Part shown: piece by piece, positions 10,955 through 41,576 of the stretch
Position numbering within the stretch: position 1 is the stretch's first letter
Layout of the letters: each line of letters starts with the position of its first letter
Origin: Arthrobacter yangruifuii
GTDB taxonomy: Bacteria; Actinomycetota; Actinomycetes; Actinomycetales; Micrococcaceae
Direction: 5' to 3'
Assembly: GCF_009192775.1 (NCBI RefSeq)
Contig: NZ_VTFX01000005.1
Location: 1 to 64,000, forward strand
Length of the DNA: 64,000 nt
Translations under genes and position numbers: made by a program
Notes under the pieces: generated by a model
What the model saw: the letters and a program-made list of their open reading frames with translations, nothing else
What the model was told of the DNA's origin: nothing
The model's database searches: none

Positions 10955-11028
10955 GCCCCCTTAGCTCAGTTGGCCAGAGCACCTGTCTTGTAAACAGGGG
11001 GTCGCCGGTTCGAATCCGGCAGGGGGCT
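10955..11028 (+). tRNA. tRNA-Thr (anticodon TGT)
   Basis: A complete cloverleaf of 74 bases with a GCCCCCT/AGGGGGC acceptor stem and the anticodon stem CCTGT/ACAGG around loop CTTGTAA, giving anticodon TGT for Thr (ACA codons). The T-arm is GCCGGTTCGAATCCGGC. The CCA end is not encoded. Confidence 0.95.
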
Positions 11029-31066: not shown

Positions 31067-32149
31067 GTGAACACTCTTACGCTTCCGGACCGTACCTGGG
31101 CGGAGACCGCCATCCGCCGTATCGAGGCCGAGGGGGCGCGCTCGGCGGATACGCACCTGTTCCAGGTGCCGGTTCCCGCCGGCTGGTCGGTGCAGGTCTA
31201 CCTCAAGGACGAGTCCACCCACCGCACCGGCAGCCTCAAGCACCGGCTGGCCCGGTCCCTGTTCCTCTTCGGCCTGGTGAACGGCTGGATCACGGAGGGC
31301 ACTCCTATCGTGGAAGCGTCCAGCGGCTCCACGGCCGTCTCCGAAGCGTATTTCGCCCAGCTGCTGGGACTGCCGTTTGTGGCCGTGATGCCGCAGACCA
31401 CCAGTGCGGAGAAAATCCGGCTGATTGAGCACTACGGCGGGCGCTGCCACTTTGTCCAGGATCCGTCAGAGGTCTATGCCGCTGCGGAAGCCGTCGCAGC
31501 GAGTACCGGCGGACACTACATGGACCAGTTCACCTATGCCGAACGGGCCACCGACTGGCGCGGCAACAACAATATTGCCGAGTCGGTTTTTTCGCAGATG
31601 TCCCGGGAGGACCATCCGCTGCCGGAGTGGATTGTGGTGGGCGCAGGCACCGGCGGCACCAGTGCCACGATCGGCCGGTACATCCGCTACCACCGGCACC
31701 CCACGCGGCTGGCGGTGGTGGACCCGGAGAATTCCGCGTTCTTCCCCGCCTGGCGGAACCCGGGGCAGCCCGCCGCCGGGCGGCCGTCCCGGATCGAAGG
31801 CATTGGCCGGCCCCGGCCGGAGCCCAGCTTTATTCCGGCCGTTATAGACCACATGATCCAGGTGCCGGATGCCGCGTCGGTGGCGGCCTCACGCCATCTG
31901 CGCCGGCTGACGGGCCTGCATGCGGGCCCCTCCACCGGCACCAGCCTCTGGGGTGTGTGGCAGCTGGCGGCGGCCATGGAGGCGGAAGGCCGTGCCGGGA
32001 GCATCGTTTCGCTGGTGTGTGACTCGGGGGACCGGTATGCCGCCTCCTATGGTGACGACGCCTGGCTCGCCTCGCACGGCCTGGATCCCGCGCCGGCGGC
32101 TGCGGTGCTTGAGGAACTGTTCCGAACCGGGCGGTGGCCCTCGGGCTGA
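31067..32149 (+). CDS. PLP-dependent cysteine synthase family protein, Cds1-like
   Basis: The 360-residue fold-type II PLP enzyme has the Schiff-base Lys in [11 protein letters not shown], the substrate loop [13 protein letters not shown] and the phosphate-binding [14 protein letters not shown]. This arrangement, with SLKHR and the EASSGSTA loop, matches the mycobacterial Cds1 group, which desulfurates L-cysteine to pyruvate, ammonia and sulfide. A role in cysteine breakdown is therefore likely but not proven. GTG 31067 follows TAGGCTGGAGGC. Confidence 0.82.
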
Positions 32150-32283: not shown

Positions 32284-33261
32284 ATGAAGCCAATTCTTAG
32301 GGTGCTCGCCGCCTCCACCGCGGTCCTGGCACTCGCCGCCTGCGGTTCGGGCTCGCCCAGCGGGGGCACCGAGGACACCGCTGAGGCCGCCGGCGGCGAG
32401 CTGACCAAGGTCACGGTTGGCGTCATTCCCATCGTCGACGTGGCCCCGATCTACCTCGGCGTCCAGGAGGGATTCTTCGAAGACGAGGGCCTGGAGCTGG
32501 AACTGCAGCCGGCTCAGGGCGGTGCCGCCATTGTTCCGGCAGTCATGAGCGGGAGCATGGACTTCGGTTTCAGCAATATCTCCTCCATGCTGGTGGCGCA
32601 GTCCAAGGGCCTGGATGTGCAGGTGGTGGCGGCCGGCGCGGCATCCACCGGCGAAGACGGTGCCGACTTCGGCGGCATCCTGGCCGCCCCGGATTCCGGG
32701 ATCGCATCGGCTGCGGATCTCAGCGGCAAGAAGGTGGCCGTGAATACCCTCAACAACATCAATGACACCACCGTCCGGGCCGCGGTGCGCAAGGCCGGGG
32801 GCGACCCGTCCGGTATCCAGTTCGTGGAGCTGGCCTTCCCTGACATGCAGGCAGCCCTTGAACGCGGCCAGGTGGATGCCATCCAGGTGGTGGAGCCCTT
32901 CCTGGCGGGCGGGCAGAAGGCCGGGTCCACCCTCGTGGCCTCGAACTACGTCGATACGGCGGAGAATCTGGCCGTCGGCGCCTACTTCACGACGTCGGCG
33001 AAGATCGGGGATGACGACGGGACGGTGGAGAAATTCACCGCGGCCATGAACAAGTCCCTGGAATACGCCGAGCAGAACCCCGATGCGGTCCGCGATGTCC
33101 TGCTCACGTATACGAAGATCGACGCCGAGACGGCAAAGGCGTTGACCCTGCCCAGCTTTACCACGGAGATCAACCGTGCCGGCGTGGAAACACTTGCGGA
33201 GCTCTCGGTCAGCGACGGGCTGATCACAGAAGAGCCGAACCTGGATGAGCTGTTGCCGTAA
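32284..33261 (+). CDS. ABC importer substrate-binding lipoprotein (SsuA/NMT1 family)
   Basis: The 325-residue protein begins with a lipoprotein signal peptide (LAALALAAC-type lipobox, Cys20). It then has the NMT1/SsuA-like fold: KVTVGVIPIVDVAPIYLGVQEGFFEDEGLELEL, a GAAIVPAVMSGSMDFGFSN ligand loop and ALERGQVDAIQVVEPF. This family binds sulfonates, nitrate, thiamine precursors or aromatic acids. It leads a four-gene operon (binding protein, two permeases, ATPase), and its stop and the next start share TAATG. Confidence 0.9.
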   Translation: MKPILRVLAASTAVLALAACGSGSPSGGTEDTAEAAGGELTKVTVGVIPIVDVAPIYLGVQEGFFEDEGLELELQPAQGGAAIVPAVMSGSMDFGFSNISSMLVAQSKGLDVQVVAAGAASTGEDGADFGGILAAPDSGIASAADLSGKKVAVNTLNNINDTTVRAAVRKAGGDPSGIQFVELAFPDMQAALERGQVDAIQVVEPFLAGGQKAGSTLVASNYVDTAENLAVGAYFTTSAKIGDDDGTVEKFTAAMNKSLEYAEQNPDAVRDVLLTYTKIDAETAKALTLPSFTTEINRAGVETLAELSVSDGLITEEPNLDELLP

Positions 33262-34100
33262 TGAGTGCCGAAGTGCTGAAACCCGGACGGGCCGCGCAGC
33301 CGCGCACGGCCCGGACGGGCGCGCGCCGCTCCGTACCGAAGCCGGTACTGGGCCTTCTCGGTGTTCTGGGCTTCCTGCTGGTCTGGGAGGCGGTTCCGGC
33401 CGTGGGCCTGGTGGAAGCCCGCTTCCTACCGCCTGCTTCGGAGGTCATCATCGCGCTGGTCCGGGACTTCGGGCTGACGGCCTTCTGGCTGGCCGTGGGA
33501 CATACCCTGATGGCCTGGGCCATTGGCCTGGCAGTCGCCGTCGTCTCCGCCGGCGTCCTCGGCCTGGTCATCGGCATGAGCCCGTTCCTGCGCCGCTTCA
33601 CCAACTCCACCATCGAGTTCCTGCGCCCGGTTCCCTCCGTTGCGCTGATCCCGCTGGCTGTGCTGCTGTTCGGCGTCAAAATCGAGTCCTCCCTCATGCT
33701 GATCATCTACGCCTGCTTCTGGCAGGTGCTGATCCAGGTGCTCTACGGAGTGGCCGACGTTGACAATGTGGCCACCCAGACGGCCCAGTCCTACGGGTTC
33801 TCCCGGTTCCAGCGGGTCCGGGACGTAGTGTTCCCCACCGTCCTGCCGTACCTGATGACGGGCCTGCGCCTGGGCGCCTCCGTGGCACTGATCCTGGCCA
33901 TCACCGCCGAGCTCATCATCGGTTCGCCGGGTCTGGGACGCGAGATTGCCGACGCCCAGTCCGGCGGTGCCATCTCCGGAATGTACGCACTCGTGCTGGC
34001 CACCGGCCTGCTGGGCGTCGCGATCAATATTGTGATGCGCCAGGCCGAGCAGCGCCTGCTGGCCTGGCATCCGTCCGTTCGGGGAGAGGCAGTGCTGTGA
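33261..34100 (+). CDS. ABC importer permease 1 (SsuC/TauC type)
   Basis: The 279-residue protein has six predicted helices and the BPD_transp_1 EAA loop (QTAQSYGFSRFQRVRDVVFPTVLPYLMTGLRLG), which contacts the ATPase. It is translated directly after the binding protein and overlaps the second permease by four bases (GTGA). Two separate permease genes suggest a heterodimeric channel, less usual for SsuC-type systems with a single permease. Confidence 0.9.
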   Translation: MSAEVLKPGRAAQPRTARTGARRSVPKPVLGLLGVLGFLLVWEAVPAVGLVEARFLPPASEVIIALVRDFGLTAFWLAVGHTLMAWAIGLAVAVVSAGVLGLVIGMSPFLRRFTNSTIEFLRPVPSVALIPLAVLLFGVKIESSLMLIIYACFWQVLIQVLYGVADVDNVATQTAQSYGFSRFQRVRDVVFPTVLPYLMTGLRLGASVALILAITAELIIGSPGLGREIADAQSGGAISGMYALVLATGLLGVAINIVMRQAEQRLLAWHPSVRGEAVL

Positions 34101-34870
34101 AGACCCTCAAGAACCTGGGGTACGTGCTCGCGCTGCCCGTGCTGCTGGTGCTCCTGTGGTGGGTGTCCACCCGCGGTGAACCGAACTTCTTTGTCCCCAC
34201 GCCGGCGGCCCTGGTCGATGTCTTCGGGCCCACCTGGTTCGAGGGGCGCATCACCGCCGACGTCCTGCCGTCGGTGGCCCGGCTGCTCGCCGGGCTGGCC
34301 ATCGCGATCATTCTCGGCATCGCCGTCGGGCTGCTGGTGGGCCTGAATCGGACGCTGCGGGCGCTGACCGAACCGGTGTTCGAATTCTTCCGCGCCCTGC
34401 CGCCGCCGGTGCTGGTTCCGGTGCTGATCCTGCTGGTGGGCCTGAACGACGCCATGAAGGTGGCCGTGATTGTGGTCGGCTGCATCTGGCCGGTGCTGCT
34501 GAACACCATTGAAGGCGTGCGCTCCATCGACCCGGTGCAGAACGAAACCACCCGCTCCTACGGCATTTCCGGAATGAACCGGATCCGCTACCAGGTGCTG
34601 CCTTCCGCAGCCCCGACGATCATGGCGGGTATCCGGCAGTCACTGTCCATTGGCCTCATCCTGATGGTCATTTCGGAGATGTTCGGTTCCTCCTCGGGGC
34701 TGGGCTTCACGATTTTGCAGTTCCAGCGGTCTTTCGCCATTCCGGAAATGTGGTCCGGCATCCTGGTGCTCGGCCTGATCGGCCTGGCGCTGTCCCTGAT
34801 TTTCCAATGGTGCGAACGGCGCGTGCTGCGCTGGTACCACGGCCTTAAAGAGGTAGAAAATGCAGCCTGA
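34097..34870 (+). CDS. ABC importer permease 2 (SsuC/TauC type)
   Basis: A 257-residue permease homologous to the preceding one, with its own EAA loop (ETTRSYGISGMNRIRYQVLPSAAPTIMAGIRQ) and about six helices. GTG 34097 overlaps the stop of permease 1. The ATPase gene starts 11 bases before its end, so the operon is tightly coupled. Confidence 0.9.
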   Translation: MKTLKNLGYVLALPVLLVLLWWVSTRGEPNFFVPTPAALVDVFGPTWFEGRITADVLPSVARLLAGLAIAIILGIAVGLLVGLNRTLRALTEPVFEFFRALPPPVLVPVLILLVGLNDAMKVAVIVVGCIWPVLLNTIEGVRSIDPVQNETTRSYGISGMNRIRYQVLPSAAPTIMAGIRQSLSIGLILMVISEMFGSSSGLGFTILQFQRSFAIPEMWSGILVLGLIGLALSLIFQWCERRVLRWYHGLKEVENAA

Positions 34871-35735
34871 CGCCATTTCCGCGAACACAACTCCTGCTCC
34901 GGAGGGTGCCGTTCCCTCCGGACGCACCCTGCCCGAGGGGGAAGCGCTGCTGTCGGTCCGCGGGCTGAAAAAGGTCTACTCCACCGACGGTGGCCCTATC
35001 GAAGCCGTCCGCAACCTCACCTTCGACCTGGGCCACGGCGAGCTGGCCTGCCTGGTGGGGCCCTCCGGTTCCGGCAAAACCACCCTGCTGAAGATCATTG
35101 CCGGGCTGTTGGGCGCCACTGAGGGCGAGGTGCTGCTCGACGGCAAAAAGGTCACCGGCCCGCCCAAGAAAATGGCGGTGGTCTTCCAGGAATACGGCCG
35201 CTCGCTGTTCCCCTGGCTGCGGGTGGCGGACAACGTGGAGCTGCCCCTCAAGAATGCGGGCGTGCCCAAGGAGGAACGGCGGGAGCGGGTTGCCGCAGCC
35301 CTGGAAGCGGTGGGGCTGGCGCACGTGCCCAAGTCCTATCCGTGGCAGTTGTCCGGAGGCATGCAGCAGCGCGTGGCCATTGCCCGGGCGGTGGCGTACC
35401 AGCCCGAGGTGCTGCTGATGGATGAGCCTTTTGCGGCCGTTGACGCCCAGACCCGGGCGGATCTGGAGGACCTCACCCGGCGGCTGTGGAAGGACCTGGG
35501 GATGACCATCCTGTTCGTGACCCACGACATCGACGAGTCGGTGTACCTGGGCGAACGCGTCATCATCCTGTCCTCTTCCCCCACCGTGGTGCAGGAGGAC
35601 ATTGTGATTGACCTCCCGGTGGACCGCACCCAGCTGGAGACACGGGAAATGCCGCGCTTCACCGAACTGCGCCATCACGTGTACGAGCAGATCCAGCTGG
35701 CGAAGAAGGGCCACCGGCCGGACGCGGCACACTAG
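34860..35735 (+). CDS. ABC importer ATP-binding protein (SsuB/TauB type)
   Basis: The 291-residue ATPase has Walker A (GPSGSGKTTLLK), a Q-loop (VVFQEYGRSLFPWL), the signature LSGGMQQR, Walker B (VLLMDEPFAAVD) and the switch His (FVTHDIDESVYLG). It lacks the TOBE tail of sugar-type ATPases, in line with the nitrate/sulfonate/taurine group. It ends the importer operon before a strong terminator. Confidence 0.92.
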   Translation: MQPDAISANTTPAPEGAVPSGRTLPEGEALLSVRGLKKVYSTDGGPIEAVRNLTFDLGHGELACLVGPSGSGKTTLLKIIAGLLGATEGEVLLDGKKVTGPPKKMAVVFQEYGRSLFPWLRVADNVELPLKNAGVPKEERRERVAAALEAVGLAHVPKSYPWQLSGGMQQRVAIARAVAYQPEVLLMDEPFAAVDAQTRADLEDLTRRLWKDLGMTILFVTHDIDESVYLGERVIILSSSPTVVQEDIVIDLPVDRTQLETREMPRFTELRHHVYEQIQLAKKGHRPDAAH

Positions 35736-35749
35736 TTCCGGCCCCGCCG

Positions 35750-35791
35750 GACGACGGCGGCCCCTCCCGGGAAGGAGGGGCCGCCGTCGTC
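35750..35791. terminator. strong terminator between importer and dioxygenase genes
   Basis: An 18-bp perfect stem (35750-35767 with 35774-35791) with a 6-base loop, followed by GTTT. It lies between convergent genes and can work both ways. Confidence 0.85.
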
Positions 35792-35814
35792 GTTTGAAGG
35801 GATCCGCGCGCTGG

Positions 35815-36777
35815 TCAGCTGGCGGGGAGCTCCACCGGGGGAGTGCCGTGGGTGTGGAAGGTGCTGATGGTCTTCATCCCCCAGGCCTGGCCCTTGGCAC
35901 GCTCCGCCTCGGACCATTCAATGGTCTTCCAGTCCGGGGCCAGGATCAGGCGTGCCCCGGCGTTGCAGAACTCGATCCGGTTGCCGCCGGGCTCGTACAC
36001 GTACAGGAAGAACGTCTGCTGGATGGCGTGCTTATGCGGACCGGTTTCAATGTGGATGCCGTTCTCCAGGAAGATATCCGCGGCCTTGAGGATGTCTTCC
36101 CGGGTGTCGGTGGCGAACGCCACGTGGTGCAGCCGGCCGCTGCTGCCGGTCCAGTCACCGCTGTACACCAGATCGTAGGACTTGTTGGAGAAGGTGAACC
36201 ACTGGCCGGACAGCATGCCGTTGTCCAACCTGATCTGTTCAGTGGGCTTGCCGCCGAGCACCTCCTCCACGAACCTGCCGTTTTCCGCCACGTCCTTTCC
36301 CAGGAAGTTCACGTGGTCCAGACGGCGGGCATTCACCCCGCGGCCCGGAAAGCGGTCCGCCTGGTTCTTCAGGGCCGGCCGGGACTCCTCCGTGGGGACG
36401 TGCCATTCGCTGTCGAAGTAGATGTCCATCGGATGCCCGTCCGGATCCGTGAAGGCGTAGGTCTTGCCCATGCCGGGACCGCCGTCGTGCCAGCCGACGC
36501 CGCGTCCTGCAGCCTCAATGGCCGCGACGCGGCGCTGCAGCGCCTCTTCACTGGCGGCACGCAGGCCCAGGCGGCCGACGCCGGAGGTCTCGTGCGCGGT
36601 CAGCTTGATGGTGTGGTGTTCGTAGTCGTCCCACGCGTGCAGGTAGGCCGAATCGCCGTCCCGCCCGACTTCGCGCATTGCCAGCAGCTCGGTGAAGAAC
36701 CAGAGGCTCTTCTCGAAATCCGGGGTATACAGTTCCACGAAGCCCAGGTGGGCCACGTCGCGAAAAGCACTAGCCAT
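35815..36777 (-). CDS. VOC-family (type I) extradiol ring-cleavage dioxygenase
   Basis: The 320-residue, two-domain vicinal-oxygen-chelate protein has the layout of BphC/catechol 2,3-dioxygenases. The iron ligands can be seen in the C-terminal domain as His155 (LDHVNF), His218 (LHHVAF) and Glu269 (GNRIEF), with spacing nearly that of BphC. It should therefore cut an aromatic diol or triol next to a hydroxyl with O2 and Fe(II). Its neighbours convert 4-oxalomesaconate, so a gallate- or protocatechuate-like substrate is inferred. That reaction is normally done by the unrelated LigAB/GalA family. ATG 36777 has AAAGGA 7 bases upstream. Confidence 0.88.
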   Translation of the reverse strand: MASAFRDVAHLGFVELYTPDFEKSLWFFTELLAMREVGRDGDSAYLHAWDDYEHHTIKLTAHETSGVGRLGLRAASEEALQRRVAAIEAAGRGVGWHDGGPGMGKTYAFTDPDGHPMDIYFDSEWHVPTEESRPALKNQADRFPGRGVNARRLDHVNFLGKDVAENGRFVEEVLGGKPTEQIRLDNGMLSGQWFTFSNKSYDLVYSGDWTGSSGRLHHVAFATDTREDILKAADIFLENGIHIETGPHKHAIQQTFFLYVYEPGGNRIEFCNAGARLILAPDWKTIEWSEAERAKGQAWGMKTISTFHTHGTPPVELPAS

Positions 36778-36868
36778 AGTGGTGTCCTTTGCAGTCTGCT
36801 CGATCGGCATGGGCTTCGTTGCCTGCCTGCCCCGAAGCGGTGCTGAGAGTCAATCAGCGGCCCCGGAA

Positions 36869-36880
36869 AGTGTCAACAAT
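36869..36880. promoter_or_regulatory. GntR-type operator, site 1 (dioxygenase)
   Basis: AGTGTCAACAAT differs by one base from the palindrome ATTGTCAACAAT. It lies 92 bases upstream of the dioxygenase start and just after the stop of the upstream dehydrogenase gene. Confidence 0.6.
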
Positions 36881-36896
36881 TTCGCAGACAATGCCG

Positions 36897-37667
36897 TCAG
36901 GAGTCCGCTGCCAGGGCGGACAGCCAGCGCAGGGTGCCCTCCGTCATCCACGCCGGCGTCCCCAGCGTGCCGAGGTAGGCGAGGGAGTCTTCCACCTCGT
37001 GGGCACGCCGCACCGCATGCGTATGCGAGCCCTCGATCAGGCGGGCCACCAGCGCCGGACCCTCCGGGCCCAGCTCCCCGGCAATTTCCGCCAGCAGCCA
37101 TTCCTCCGCGCCCGCCGCCTGTCCCGCAGCGGAAGACTCCAGCACCAGCCCGGCCAGCCCCTTCATAAAGACACTGCGCAGCAGCTTGCGCCCGGCCGCG
37201 GCTCCGGCAGGACCGGGAACTGTCTGCACCGGTGCGCCAAGGCTTTCCATCAGTGCTGCAAACCGATCCGCGGCCGGGCCGCTGACGAGCAGCGGGGTCC
37301 GGCTGCCGGCACGCGGGACGGGTGCCATGACCGCCACGTCCACGAACGGTACGCCGTGCCGTGCGGCGACCTCGGCCAGCCCGGCTTTGCTGTCCGGACC
37401 CGAGGTATTGAAATCCGCGAAGACCGCGCCGGGCCCCAGCAGCGGAAGCACCTGCTCCGCCACGCTGCCGGCTGCGCCGGCGCCGACCAGGCTGATAGCC
37501 AGCTCGGTTCCGGCCAGGGCTTCCGCCGGGGAGTCGAACTGGCGGATGCCGGTGCTGCGGGCGTCGGTGAAGGGGTCATAGCCGCGTACGTCGGCCCCGG
37601 ACTCCGCTAGTCCCAGGGCGTACAAACGCCCGGCTTCGCCCAGGCCCAGTACGGTCACCGCGGTCAT
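36897..37667 (-). CDS. NAD(P)-dependent dehydrogenase with DUF1932 C-terminus
   Basis: The 256-residue protein resembles 3-hydroxyisobutyrate/6-phosphogluconate dehydrogenases. It has a Rossmann start VTVLGLGEAGRLYALGLAESGA, a GAVFADFNTSGPDSKAGLAE substrate loop and a catalytic-Lys region (GRKLLRSVFMKGLAGLVLE) leading into the helical DUF1932 domain. It is divergent from the GntR gene and upstream of the dioxygenase gene on the same strand. It is not the Gfo/Idh-type LigC that oxidises the ring-cleavage product of protocatechuate, so its step in the pathway is open. ATG 37667 follows AGAGGA. Confidence 0.82.
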   Translation of the reverse strand: MTAVTVLGLGEAGRLYALGLAESGADVRGYDPFTDARSTGIRQFDSPAEALAGTELAISLVGAGAAGSVAEQVLPLLGPGAVFADFNTSGPDSKAGLAEVAARHGVPFVDVAVMAPVPRAGSRTPLLVSGPAADRFAALMESLGAPVQTVPGPAGAAAGRKLLRSVFMKGLAGLVLESSAAGQAAGAEEWLLAEIAGELGPEGPALVARLIEGSHTHAVRRAHEVEDSLAYLGTLGTPAWMTEGTLRWLSALAADS

Positions 37668-37706
37668 GGTGTGTCCTCTCGTCGCTGTCCGCCGATTATC
37701 GCCATG

Positions 37707-37718
37707 ATTGTCAACAAT
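37707..37718. promoter_or_regulatory. GntR-type operator, site 2 (divergent promoter)
   Basis: The perfect palindrome ATTGTCAACAAT (ATTGT-2-ACAAT) lies 39 bases before the dehydrogenase start and about 110 bases before the gntR start. It is suited to control both. Confidence 0.7.
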
Positions 37719-37829
37719 GCCAAGTGCGGCGGCAGCACCCGGCGCCGGCACGGGCAGGGGCAGTGATTTACTTGACGTGACAGGACCCGTGACGGGGTAA
37801 TGGATGCCGTTTCCCCAAGGAGCTTCCAG

Positions 37830-38492
37830 ATGACAGCAGATGCAGCAGCGACCACCAGTAACGCTGCGCAGGTGGCGGACGCCCTCCGTGCGGCCATTCT
37901 GGACGGCGAGCTGGTGCCGTCCCAGCGGCTCGTGGAAGCGGACCTGTGCAGCCGGTTCAACGCCAGCCGCAGTGCGGTCCGGTCCGCGCTGGCCGAACTT
38001 GCCGTCGAGGGAGTGGTGGAACGGGTGCAGAACCGCGGGGCCCGCGTGCGGTCAGTCTCCGTGGAGGAAGCCGTGGAAATCATCGAAGTCCGCGGCGTCC
38101 TGGAGGCGCTGTGTGCCCGCAAGGCGGCGGACAGAATCGATGCAGGCCAGGCGGCCGAGCTCCGGCAGATGGCCGGCGAGATGGCCTCTGCCGTGAAGGC
38201 CGGAGAGCTGATGCGCTATTCGGAGACGAACTCCCGGCTGCACCGCCGGATCGTTGAAATCAGCGGACAGGGCACCGCAGGGGCCACCATCGAAAGACTG
38301 CGGGCACAGAATGTGCGCCACCAGTTCCGGCTCGCCATCCAGCCCGGGCGTGCCGCCGTCTCCCTGCCGGAGCATGTGGACATCATCGAGGCGATCTGCG
38401 CCGGGCAGGGGGAGCAGGCAGCCCGGATGATGGAGTCCCACATGGCCAGCATTGCCGAGGCGATCCGGCGGGCCGGATCCGCCTCAAGCTGA
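37830..38492 (+). CDS. GntR family regulator (FadR/FCD subfamily)
   Basis: A 220-residue regulator. The N-terminal winged helix is typical (VADALRAAILDGELVPSQRLVEADLCSRFNASRSAVRSALAELAVEGVVERVQNRGARV). The FCD ligand domain follows with the Glu/Arg pattern VRGVLEALCARKAA and later metal/ligand-region His residues (SRLHRRIVEISG; LPEHVDIIEAI; SHMASI). It likely senses an intermediate of the surrounding aromatic pathway and binds the ATTGTCAACAAT sites. ATG 37830 has AAGGAG 7 bases upstream; the ATG at 37800 has poor spacing. Confidence 0.9.
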   Translation: MTADAAATTSNAAQVADALRAAILDGELVPSQRLVEADLCSRFNASRSAVRSALAELAVEGVVERVQNRGARVRSVSVEEAVEIIEVRGVLEALCARKAADRIDAGQAAELRQMAGEMASAVKAGELMRYSETNSRLHRRIVEISGQGTAGATIERLRAQNVRHQFRLAIQPGRAAVSLPEHVDIIEAICAGQGEQAARMMESHMASIAEAIRRAGSASS

Positions 38493-38608
38493 GCGGGCGG
38501 TCCGGTCGGCCGCCGCGGCGGCACGGACGGGAAGCGCCCTCTGGACGTTGGGCGCCGCAAAGGCAGCGCCGGCGCGGGTGCGGCCGCCCTCCCCGGGTTG
38601 TCACCGTT

Positions 38609-38620
38609 ATTGTCAACAAT
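38609..38620. promoter_or_regulatory. GntR-type operator, site 3 (galD-ligJ-ligK operon)
   Basis: The perfect palindrome ATTGTCAACAAT ends 22 bases before the GTG start of the tautomerase gene. A half-like GTTGTCAC lies just upstream at 38597-38604. Confidence 0.7.
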
Positions 38621-38642
38621 ATGGTGCACGAGGTACATTCTG

Positions 38643-39848
38643 GTGGTGCAGATCACAGACGCGTTGCCCTCGTTCCCCTCCGGCTTCGCGGGCGCCGGCA
38701 GCCAGGCCGGGATTCCCTGCTGGTTCATGCGCGGCGGTACCTCCCGGGGACCGTTCTTCCGCCGCACGGACCTGCCCGCCGATGCGCAGCAGCGCGACGA
38801 GGCACTGGTCGCGGCTCTCGGATCCGGGCACCCGCTGCAGATCGACGGGCTCGGCGGCGGCAACCCGCTCACCAGCAAGGTGGGGATGGTGGATGTCAGC
38901 AGCCGGGACGGGGTGGACCTGGAGTTCCTGTTCGCGCAGCTGCAGCCCACGGGAACCACCGTGGACACCACGGCCAACTGCGGCAACATGCTCGCCGCCG
39001 TCGTTCCCTTCGCGGTGGAGGCCGGGCTGCTGGTTCCCGACTCAGACATCACCACGGCGCGGGTCCTGACACTGAACACCGGCATGGTCGCCGAAATCAG
39101 CATTCCCACCCCGGCGGGTCCCGGCGGCAGGTTTGTCGAGTACACCGGAGATATCCGCATCGACGGAGTCCCCGGTACGGCGGCGGCCGTGACCATCAAT
39201 TTCCTCGACACGGCCGGCTCCGTGTGTGCCTCGCTGCTTCCCACCGGCAGCCCCGCCGACACCGTGGAGCTCGACGGCGGAGGCCCGGTCCGCGTCACGT
39301 GCATCGACAACGGGCAGCCGCTGGTGATGGTCCGTGCGGAGGACGTGGGCTGCACCGGCTACGAATCCGCCGCGGACCTGAACCGGAACGCCGAACTGAA
39401 GCAGACCCTGGAGAAGCTGCGGCTACAGTGCGGGCACCTGATGGGCCTGGGAGACGTCACCGCCCGGAACTACCCGAAGATGACGCTGATCGCCCCGCCG
39501 GCGCACGGCGGCACCCTCAGCACGCGCAGCTTCATCCCGCACGTCTGCCACGAATCCATCGGCGTGCTCGCGGCCGTCACCGCGGCCACCGCGTGCGTCA
39601 TCGACGGCACCGTGGCTCAGGACGTGAGCACGGTTCCCCGCACCGGCCCCGGGGAGGGGCTGACGGTTTCCGTGGAGCATCCGTCCGGTGAATTCACCGT
39701 GGAACTCGGGCTGGACCCGGAAGACCCGCAGCATGTCACCAGGTCCGCCCTGCTGCGTACGGCCCGGCTGATTATGGCCGGCGAAGTTTTTGTCCCGCGC
39801 CGGTCCGGGAGCACCCGGACGGCCGCAGCAGAGGAGAGCGCACAGTGA
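38643..39848 (+). CDS. galD: 4-oxalomesaconate tautomerase (PrpF/GalD family)
   Basis: The PrpF-fold protein (401 residues from GTG 38643) isomerises 4-oxalomesaconate keto and enol forms so that the hydratase can act. It begins IPCWFMRGGTSRGPFF, a hallmark of GalD/PrpF proteins, followed by GLGGGNPLTSKVGMVD and TTANCGNMLAAVVPFA, where Cys and neighbouring residues form the active site of the diaminopimelate-epimerase-like fold. GAGG lies 9 bases upstream. The gene heads a three-gene operon with overlapping starts. The exact start is uncertain, as GTG 38646 is also possible. Confidence 0.87.
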   Translation: MVQITDALPSFPSGFAGAGSQAGIPCWFMRGGTSRGPFFRRTDLPADAQQRDEALVAALGSGHPLQIDGLGGGNPLTSKVGMVDVSSRDGVDLEFLFAQLQPTGTTVDTTANCGNMLAAVVPFAVEAGLLVPDSDITTARVLTLNTGMVAEISIPTPAGPGGRFVEYTGDIRIDGVPGTAAAVTINFLDTAGSVCASLLPTGSPADTVELDGGGPVRVTCIDNGQPLVMVRAEDVGCTGYESAADLNRNAELKQTLEKLRLQCGHLMGLGDVTARNYPKMTLIAPPAHGGTLSTRSFIPHVCHESIGVLAAVTAATACVIDGTVAQDVSTVPRTGPGEGLTVSVEHPSGEFTVELGLDPEDPQHVTRSALLRTARLIMAGEVFVPRRSGSTRTAAAEESAQ

Positions 39849-40900
39849 TCATCGATTGCCACGGCCACTACACCACAGCCCCGCCGGCGCTGGGTGCCTG
39901 GCGGGACCGGCAGATTGCGGCGCTCGCAGAGCCCCGCACCGCCGCCCCGGACCCGGCGGACCTGGTCATCAGCGATGATGAACTGAGGGAGAGCATCTCG
40001 GCGAACCAGCTGCGTCAGATGGATGAGCGCGGGATCGACCTGACCGTGTTTTCCCCCCGCGCCTCCTTCATGGCGCACCACGTGGGGGACGCGTCCACCT
40101 CCGCGGCCTGGGCGGCCATCTGCAACGAGCTGTGCTTCCGGGTCAGCCAGCTCTTTCCGGACCGCTTTGTTCCCGCCGCCATGCTGCCGCAGTCGCCCGG
40201 GGCGGACCCGGCCAGCTGCATCCCGGAACTGGAACGCTGCGTCAACGAGTACGGTGCGGTGGCGCTGAACCTCAACCCGGACCCCTCCGGCGGTTACTGG
40301 ACCTCCCCGCCGCTGACGGACCGCTCCTGGTATCCGATCTACGAAAAGATGGTCGAATACGGCCTGCCGGCGATGATCCACGTGAGTACCAGCGTGAACC
40401 CCGCCTTCCACACCACGGGATCCCACTACCTCAATGCGGACACCACGGCGGTGATGCAGCTGATTCAGGGCGACCTGTTTGCGGACTTCCCGGAGCTTCG
40501 ATTCGTGATCCCGCACGGCGGCGGGGCAGCCCCCTACCACTGGGGACGGTTCCGCGGACTGGCCATGGCGCTGAAGAAGCCGCCGCTGGAGGAACATCTG
40601 CTCAACAACGTCTTCTTCGACACCTGCGTCTACCACCAGCCCGGCATTGAACTGCTGCTGGAGGTTATGCCCACCCGGAACATCCTTTTCGCCTCGGAGA
40701 TGATCGGAGCGGTCCGCGACATCGACCCCGGCACCGGGTTCAACTTCGATGACACCGGACGCTATCTGGAGGCGGCCGGCCTGACCGTCGAGGAACTCGA
40801 GGATATCCGTGAGAACAATGTCCGCGCCGTGTATCCGCGTCTGGACGCCCTGCTGAGGCGGCAGGGACGGGAACCCCAAAGGAGCAGCACCCATGCATGA
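39845..40900 (+). CDS. ligJ: 4-oxalomesaconate hydratase (LigJ-like amidohydrolase)
   Basis: The 351-residue amidohydrolase-fold protein begins [19 protein letters not shown], the LigJ pattern with the HxH metal site, and has HVSTSVN and [17 protein letters not shown] for further ligands. It adds water to 4-oxalomesaconate to give 4-carboxy-4-hydroxy-2-oxoadipate. Its start overlaps the tautomerase stop (GTGATC) and its end overlaps the aldolase gene by 8 bases, so the three are translated together. Confidence 0.88.
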
Positions 40901-41576
40901 ACTCGGAGTGGTCCACCGCAGCATCACCCGTGCCCCGCAGGCCGCCGTCGAGGCACTGGCCCCGTACGGAACCAGCACCGTACACGAGGCGATGGGCAGG
41001 CTGGGACTGATGCGCCCCTACATGCGTCCCGTCTATCCGGGAGCCCGGCTGTGCGGTCCGGCCGTGACCGTGCTGCTGCAGCCGGGGGACAACTGGATGC
41101 TGCACGTGGCCGTGGAACAACTGCAGCCCGGCGACGTGCTCGTGGCAGCCTGCACCACGGAAAGTGAAGACGGGTTTTTCGGCGAACTGCTGGCCACCTC
41201 GGTGCGTGCCCGCGGCGGGGCGGGCCTGGTGATCGACGGCGGTTGCCGGGACGCAGCAGCACTGCAGGACATGGACTTTCCCGTGTTCTCACGGGCCGTC
41301 AATGCCAAGGGGACGGTCAAGGCGACCTTGGGATCGGTGAATATTCCGGTCGTCTGCGCCAACGCCCTGGTGAACCCCGGGGACGTGGTGGTGGCGGACG
41401 TGGACGGCGTCGTCGTTGTTCCGGCGGACCGTGCCGCCGAGGTGGCTGAAGCCTCCCGGAAGCGTGAGGACAATGAAGCAGCCAAGCGCGCGCGCCTCGC
41501 TGCCGGGGAACTTGGACTGGACATGTACTCGATGCGGGGGCCGCTGGAAGCGGCGGGGCTGCGCTACCTCGACTAG
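40893..41576 (+). CDS. ligK: 4-carboxy-4-hydroxy-2-oxoadipate aldolase / oxaloacetate decarboxylase (LigK, RraA fold)
   Basis: The 227-residue RraA-fold aldolase cleaves 4-carboxy-4-hydroxy-2-oxoadipate to pyruvate and oxaloacetate. It has [11 protein letters not shown] near the N-terminus, the metal/substrate motif [12 protein letters not shown] with the conserved Arg-Asp, and the [22 protein letters not shown] strand. It is the last gene of the operon and yields central metabolites, completing the lower pathway. Its stop overlaps the convergent GNAT gene by 4 bases. Confidence 0.9.

Follow-up and report, generated by a model that had tools for sequence, protein, structure and literature searches.

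A cluster of genes in Arthrobacter yangruifuii was analysed as a predicted unit for gallate breakdown in which the ring is opened by a dioxygenase of the vicinal oxygen chelate (VOC) fold. The window, the 64,000-nucleotide stretch of NZ_VTFX01000005.1 that was analysed, is part of a contig of 791 kb in a genome assembly of 3.54 Mb that is 99.55% complete. The unit extends from 32284 to 41576 and consists of an ABC importer on the forward strand, the VOC and DUF1932 genes on the reverse strand, and genes for a GntR/FCD regulator, a tautomerase, LigJ and LigK on the forward strand. The VOC gene (35815-36810, reverse strand) encodes a type I extradiol dioxygenase, the predicted gallate dioxygenase, and starts at ATG 36810 or at ATG 36777, the latter giving 320 amino acids. 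All three enzymes of the lower pathway from 4-oxalomesaconate (OMA), namely GalD/LigU, LigJ or GalB, and LigK/GalC, are present, encoded on the forward strand: an OMA tautomerase of the GalD/LigU type (38643-39848; NF033377 equivalog, 487 bits against a cut-off of 440; PDB 6p3j, 344 bits), an OMA hydratase of the LigJ type, an amidohydrolase (39845-40900; PDB 2gwg, '4-oxalomesaconate hydratase', 583 bits; PF04909), and a 4-carboxy-4-hydroxy-2-oxoadipate aldolase of the LigK/GalC type (40893-41576; TIGR02798, 389 bits against a cut-off of 304.5).

The remaining genes of the unit encode an NAD(P)-binding DUF1932 dehydrogenase (36897-37673, reverse strand; PF09130 and PF03446), a GntR/FCD transcription regulator (37800-38492, forward strand; PF00392 and PF07729) and the importer, predicted to take up the aromatic acid. 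The importer comprises an NMT1/SsuA-like substrate-binding protein (32284-33261; PF09084, 120 bits), two permeases identified as open reading frames (33261-34100 and 34097-34870) and an ATPase (34860-35735; PF00005), all on the forward strand. The permease and ATPase genes are kept in the close relatives L031-L038, and the substrate-binding gene adjoins the unit in L031 and L033-L038 and the VOC gene in L044-L047. In the close relatives L031-L037 the unit is flanked by an L-cysteine desulfhydrase gene, Cds1 (31067-32149 in the window; NF052478, 600.4 bits, cut-off 600); because this gene was not detected in L038, it was treated as a neighbour and not as part of the unit. A first-pass annotation of this DNA had placed the dioxygenase and a complete lower pathway here, and the open reading frames and the profile and PDB matches agree with its gene positions and families. 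The genes that it listed stand; it had not counted the DUF1932 gene, the GntR gene, the importer and a common palindrome into the unit.

The whole genome was searched for other enzymes that could supply OMA. PF02900, the profile for the LigB fold, gave no match in the genome as assembled, although it detects LigB in 127 of 395 genomes of the Micrococcaceae, the family of the source organism. The first-pass annotation had allowed for a LigAB-type gene close by outside the window, and with the whole-genome search empty such a gene was rejected as the ring opener. It had also noted that LigC and LigI were not visible, and whole-genome queries agree: the LigI query finds none in the source genome and does find LigI in G323, G411 and G413 in the same search, while the LigC query yields only a partial match of 33 bits over 100 residues. 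DUF6282, a candidate hydrolase of 2-pyrone-4,6-dicarboxylate (PDC), was not found in the source genome. A supply of OMA from PDC was therefore rejected, and the combination of LigC and LigI that marks a protocatechuate (PCA) 4,5-cleavage pathway was not found in the source genome. Within the cluster the VOC enzyme is the only ring-cleavage enzyme, as first annotated; this does not extend to the whole genome, which encodes three distant VOC relatives (33%, 28% and 24% identity) and a PCA 3,4-dioxygenase in a pobA-pcaH-pcaG set. Since the latter set gives PCA derived from vanillate an ortho route, gallate would be left for the VOC enzyme.

The VOC protein matches only Glyoxalase in a Pfam scan, with no match to PF02900, and has the two-module VOC fold. 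Its nearest named relative is from Arthrobacter zhaoxinii (98% identity). The closest fold matches, among those listed, are AphC (7q2a), 3lm4 and C23O (1mpy). The closest solved relative is PDB 9wgj (383 bits, phmmer), which was absent from the listed fold-search matches; no plasmid gene more than 57% identical to its sequence was found, and no paper mentioning it was found in open-access PMC. The iron ligands His155, His218 and Glu269, a 2-His-1-carboxylate site, are kept in all 80 loci of a GTDB scan (the best 80 of at least 580 confirmed stretches encoding VOC relatives), according to an aligned residue count. The first-pass annotation had described these ligands as intact, and its numbering is right from ATG 36777; from the first ATG the residues are 166, 229 and 280.

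The second shell of the active site sets the family apart. Tyr201 stands where homoprotocatechuate 2,3-dioxygenase (HPCD), also type I, has the catalytic His200, in 80/80 GTDB loci and in 9wgj, whereas the position is His in 15/15 distant VOC relatives, in 3lm4 and in HPCD. A motif-based count had given 62 Tyr, 17 unmatched and one apparent His (L171); it is superseded by the aligned count, in which all 80 loci, including L171, have Tyr. In the C23O class of type I dioxygenases the second-shell catalytic His equivalent to HPCD His200 is C23O His199; here Tyr takes its place. The VOC protein and 9wgj both have Lys199, Tyr201, Arg293, Gln297 and His308, and differ in that 9wgj has Tyr at the position of Arg276. 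The C23O-family structure 3lm4 has His at the Tyr201 position and Tyr at the Arg276 position, and differs across residues 293-308. Opposite HPCD Arg243 and Arg293, which bind the carboxylate, the VOC protein has Thr245 and Gly296, the latter adjacent to Lys295, in a region where the alignment is uncertain.

A FastTree phylogeny was built from 47 family rows, 9wgj, 3lm4, one HPCD and 15 distant relatives, the last taken from 11 genomes of the genus and four of the family or order. It separated the VOC family, with its own active-site residues, from all compared sequences except 9wgj. Support for the family node was low without 9wgj (0.46) and high with it (0.985). Among the sequences compared, the enzyme therefore does not fall into a family with another proven substrate, a placement that the first-pass annotation had said would speak against it. 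Alignment A2 was attempted with 56 of the 80 GTDB loci; lack of a usable start led to the omission of 23 and an implausible start to that of L166 and L175, and L105 was trimmed at 10975. Alignments A1 and A2 overlap, so that some genes occur twice (e.g. L040 and L105); the aligned residue count took in all 80 loci.

A palindrome common to the promoters ties the unit together. At one mismatch or fewer, ATTGTNNACAAT occurs three times in the 64 kb window, in each case at the unit, against an expectation of 0.29 sites; all of 100 shuffles gave fewer than three. In the motif scan, the operator-like sites lie upstream of the VOC gene (36869-36880, one mismatch), between the divergent DUF1932 and GntR genes (37707-37718, ATTGTCAACAAT) and upstream of the tautomerase gene (38609-38620, ATTGTCAACAAT), and mark the promoters of the VOC, regulator and tautomerase genes. 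Because the longest tautomerase reading frame (from 38598) runs through the palindrome, the start was set at GTG 38643; searches with this protein used 38628-39848. Only a two-mismatch site (32207) precedes the substrate-binding gene in the window, and a site is found upstream of this gene in seven of eight close relatives (L031 and L033-L038). In the eighth, L032, the substrate-binding gene was not detected, yet a site lies at the matching place. An exact ATTGTNNACAAT site was found in 61 of the 80 GTDB loci; each of 19 permuted palindromes matched to it in composition occurred in 0, 1 or 2 of them, and half-sites with other spacers (0 to 5 bases) were found in 0 or 1 of the 80. Whatever the order of the genes, the common palindrome therefore links VOC and the importer with the genes for the regulator and the OMA enzymes; the protein that binds ATTGTNNACAAT at these promoters is probably the GntR/FCD regulator.

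Co-occurrence across Actinobacteria, which the first-pass annotation had proposed to examine, proved strongly positive. In the 395 Micrococcaceae genomes, VOC was called at E <= 1e-80 and the tautomerase at the curated NF033377 cut-off. VOC was present in 56 genomes, the tautomerase in 59 and both in 51. Three tautomerases below the cut-off (G129, G191 and G219) were added because they lie beside the VOC gene, which brings the tautomerase to 54 of the 56 VOC genomes; in 47 of the 56 the two genes are within 8 kb. The association has a Fisher p of 3e-55, with related genomes counted as independent and the three sub-cut-off tautomerases included. No LigB was matched in 33 of the 54 genomes with both genes, and the presence of LigB does not follow the tautomerase (25/62, Fisher p 0.14). 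A further 21 genomes match NF033377 at E <= 1e-80 below the cut-off (280-333 bits) and were excluded as probable other PrpF-type proteins.

The eight genomes with an over-cut-off tautomerase and no VOC all have another possible source of OMA. In G259, G288, G295 and G413 a LigB gene lies about 2.4 kb from the tautomerase, and the three of these that were read hold LigAB, LigC and LigI. In G323, G347, G351 and G411 LigI lies beside the tautomerase, together with an MFS transporter gene where genes were called; the LigI query protein matches the PDC hydrolase PDB 4d8l at 373 bits. Every genome with an over-cut-off tautomerase thus has VOC, LigAB or LigI, and so a possible OMA source. The loci of the latter four genomes and of G311 (L070-L074) hold tautomerase, LigJ, LigK and LigI, and neither VOC nor LigAB was matched over the 19 kb read. 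With their aromatic-acid-type MFS transporter, where genes were called, these clusters look like dedicated systems for the uptake and use of PDC.

Beyond the family, the 80 GTDB loci include Arthrobacter, Streptomyces, Amycolatopsis, Actinomadura, Microbacterium, Actinoplanes, Nonomuraea and Pseudonocardia. A tautomerase lies near VOC in 71 of them, LigK in 72, both in 68, and LigJ or GalB in 69; LigAB was found near VOC in none. These counts are lower bounds as many of the loci end at contig ends; those for LigK include a few weak matches of 31-37% (L108, L126 and L174), and GntR, ALDH and ABC matches are at the level of the family. In an even sample of the phylum, 16 of 396 genomes matched VOC at E <= 1e-80. 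Plasmid records matching VOC at E <= 1e-40 numbered 83, of which 13 were read (11 of the VOC family and two more distant), chosen to spread over genera. In those read from Agrobacterium, Rhizobium, Thioclava, Roseibium and Pantoea, genes for a GalB-like (PIG-L) protein, LigK and the tautomerase occur no more than 9 kb from VOC.

The neighbours of VOC bear on its substrate. A PIG-L protein often stands in for an absent LigJ, and the one tested matches GalB of the Pseudomonas putida gallate pathway (PDB 5cgz, 257 bits). In some Actinobacteria VOC has nearby LigM equivalogs (938 and 867 bits against a cut-off of 580), proteins that resemble DesA but score under its cut-off, a PurU equivalog and proteins with weak similarity to MetF. 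LigM is a vanillate/3-O-methylgallate O-demethylase, and this make-up of LigM/DesA-like proteins, PurU and MetF is that of tetrahydrofolate-dependent syringate breakdown. The source genome itself encodes two LigM proteins (816 and 889 bits), at a distance of about 280 kb from the window. Beside one of them lies a second substrate-binding protein (L098:16508-17485), 54% identical to that of the cluster, which suggests paralogous importers for methoxylated and free acids. On a walnut Agrobacterium plasmid, PIG-L, VOC, LigK and tautomerase genes are followed directly by a tannase (PF07519, 438 bits), a family that, to go by its name, frees gallate from tannins. The tannase and LigM neighbours further favour the gallate-type substrate preferred in the first-pass annotation. 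This plasmid (A. tumefaciens pAt, L180) and one from grape A. vitis (L181), both typed conjugative, carry the VOC cluster in strains from tannin-rich hosts; the plasmid-borne cluster is possibly an adaptation to plant tannins.

Taken together, we consider it quite probable that the unit is a complete gallate regulon in which a type I (VOC-fold) Fe(II) extradiol dioxygenase opens the ring in place of a type II (LigB-fold) enzyme. That the VOC enzyme converts gallate to OMA we infer from its neighbours and from the tally of OMA sources. The ABC importer would take up gallate or a precursor, and the two LigM proteins encoded elsewhere in the genome may also produce gallate inside the cell from methoxylated acids. 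The VOC enzyme would hold gallate as the catecholate on the Fe(II) of His155, His218 and Glu269 and, with O2, cleave the C4-C5 bond to give OMA directly. Because gallate has three neighbouring hydroxyl groups, no aldehyde would form, and neither LigC nor LigI would be needed. Tautomerase, LigJ and LigK would then convert OMA to pyruvate and oxaloacetate. Owing to the third hydroxyl group, cutting next to the bound diol and cutting within the adjacent one lead to an identical product, and the enzyme could thus use a mechanism intermediate between extradiol and intradiol cleavage. In some members of the VOC family, 3-O-methylgallate or PCA could be the substrate.

The predicted reaction and the lower pathway are the same as those of GalA of P. 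putida, DesB of Sphingobium SYK-6 and LigAB. These enzymes are type II, of the LigB fold, whereas the VOC protein has an unrelated fold and metal site. The P. putida gal cluster encodes OMA tautomerase, hydratase and aldolase as in the unit. A PCA 4,5-cleavage cluster of Pseudarthrobacter Sphe3 likewise has these three enzymes; its ring-cleavage enzyme, which also turns gallate into OMA, is type II, as reported in PMC8431788, whereas that predicted for the unit is type I. The gallate ring-openers known to us are type II, in line with PMC9867520, PMC8431788, PMC6308299 and PMC12311729. The first-pass annotation had suggested that the route may be undescribed and convergent. VOC ring cleavage for the OMA route was not found in open-access PMC, and within that scope the former holds; the latter holds insofar as the folds of type I and type II enzymes are unrelated. 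What would be new is the VOC enzyme at the ring-cleavage step of the OMA route; the families of the parts and the lower pathway are known.

Several observations weigh against this assignment. Of the 56 VOC genomes, seven have the tautomerase on a different contig or at a distance above 8 kb, and two (G086 and G270) have no tautomerase match; some LigB also occurs in 21 of the 54 genomes with VOC and tautomerase. Around the Chimaeribacter VOC gene the annotation shows no OMA gene for 7 kb. The 12.9 kb of Thermus oshimai that were read include no annotated tautomerase, and a 4-hydroxybenzoate 3-monooxygenase is close by. A Roseomonas mucosa plasmid has LigAB-type genes and VOC in one cluster. 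There (L182:7028-9975) the LigAB-type genes, an alpha/beta hydrolase and the VOC gene are adjacent, and the substrates may be split between the enzymes of the two types. TIGR03211, the catechol 2,3-dioxygenase equivalog, narrowly claims the VOC protein (323.8 bits against a cut-off of 320.2; the Agrobacterium relative, at 296.8, falls below), and 9wgj bears the molecule name 'Catechol 1,2-dioxygenase'. These two labels, the closest fold matches and the presence of Tyr201 in 9wgj would suit an ordinary catechol or alkylcatechol 2,3-dioxygenase that lies beside OMA genes by chance. We regard such a bystander as highly improbable and rejected it on linkage, palindrome and residues: VOC is linked to OMA genes across phyla and shares the palindrome with them, its context is that of OMA and not of 2-hydroxymuconate semialdehyde as for the catechol 2,3-dioxygenase family (AphC, 3lm4 and C23O), and its second-shell residues are unlike those of 3lm4, HPCD and the 15 distant relatives. 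Among the records read, the only relative in a catechol-type setting, that of Thermus thermophilus with dmpG and acetaldehyde dehydrogenase, keeps the classic His.

The conserved DUF1932 dehydrogenase also counts against a simple gallate pathway: it has no place in the known gallate route, which requires no redox chemistry once the ring is open, and the pathway may include a further reaction, so far unassigned. It occurs near VOC in 33 of the 80 GTDB loci and in nine of the 11 VOC-family plasmid clusters read, across phyla (e.g. L180:2393-3280 and L185:9861-10628). VOC might instead be a type I PCA 4,5-dioxygenase, with DUF1932 an unrelated LigC replacement that makes PDC; the Thermus monooxygenase would fit, as would a Roseomonas LigI-like amidohydrolase beside DUF1932, which is below the cut-off of the only model. 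This is very unlikely, as it requires a PDC hydrolase, for which neither LigI nor the candidate DUF6282 was found in the source genome, and the genome already has a PCA 3,4-dioxygenase; moreover, DUF1932 was not detected in the read stretches of L039, L083, L084, L086 and L087. LigM or DesA relatives near VOC in 21 of the 80 GTDB loci raise another prospect, in which the enzyme naturally acts on 3-O-methylgallate or a different methoxylated trihydroxybenzoate and the ring-opened product reaches OMA by loss of methanol or via PDC. LigI near VOC in seven of the 80 (one a weak match of 33%) is in keeping with this, as are L136, L157, L169 and L179, where DesA-like, MetF-like and PurU proteins accompany VOC with no lower-pathway genes detected close by. 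We think it unlikely: a demethylating LigM occurs in many of these clusters, the source genome has no detectable LigI, Pfam reveals no methyl-ester hydrolase among the genes of the unit, and the tannase-linked cluster would release gallate and not a methyl ether.

Gallic acid is a breakdown product of plant tannins and lignin, and a type I gallate dioxygenase would amount to a widespread second route for a textbook reaction. Since the gallate ring-openers known to us are LigB-fold (type II) enzymes, a genome without the LigB fold would be taken to lack the capacity for gallate use. If the assignment is correct, many genes named 'catechol 2,3-dioxygenase' or 'VOC family protein' in plasmid records would be gallate dioxygenases, one of the most thoroughly studied non-haem iron sites would have a naturally occurring variant with Tyr in place of His, and there would be a new enzyme for converting lignin to oxaloacetate and pyruvate. 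It would also widen the view of how Actinobacteria use tannins and syringyl lignin. We are evenly divided on a broader proposal, that a second, convergent gallate pathway, built on a trihydroxybenzoate-specialized VOC dioxygenase with a His-to-Tyr second shell, extends over Actinomycetota, Alpha- and Gammaproteobacteria and perhaps Thermus, and would be a main route by which Actinobacteria use the carbon of tannins and syringyl lignin.

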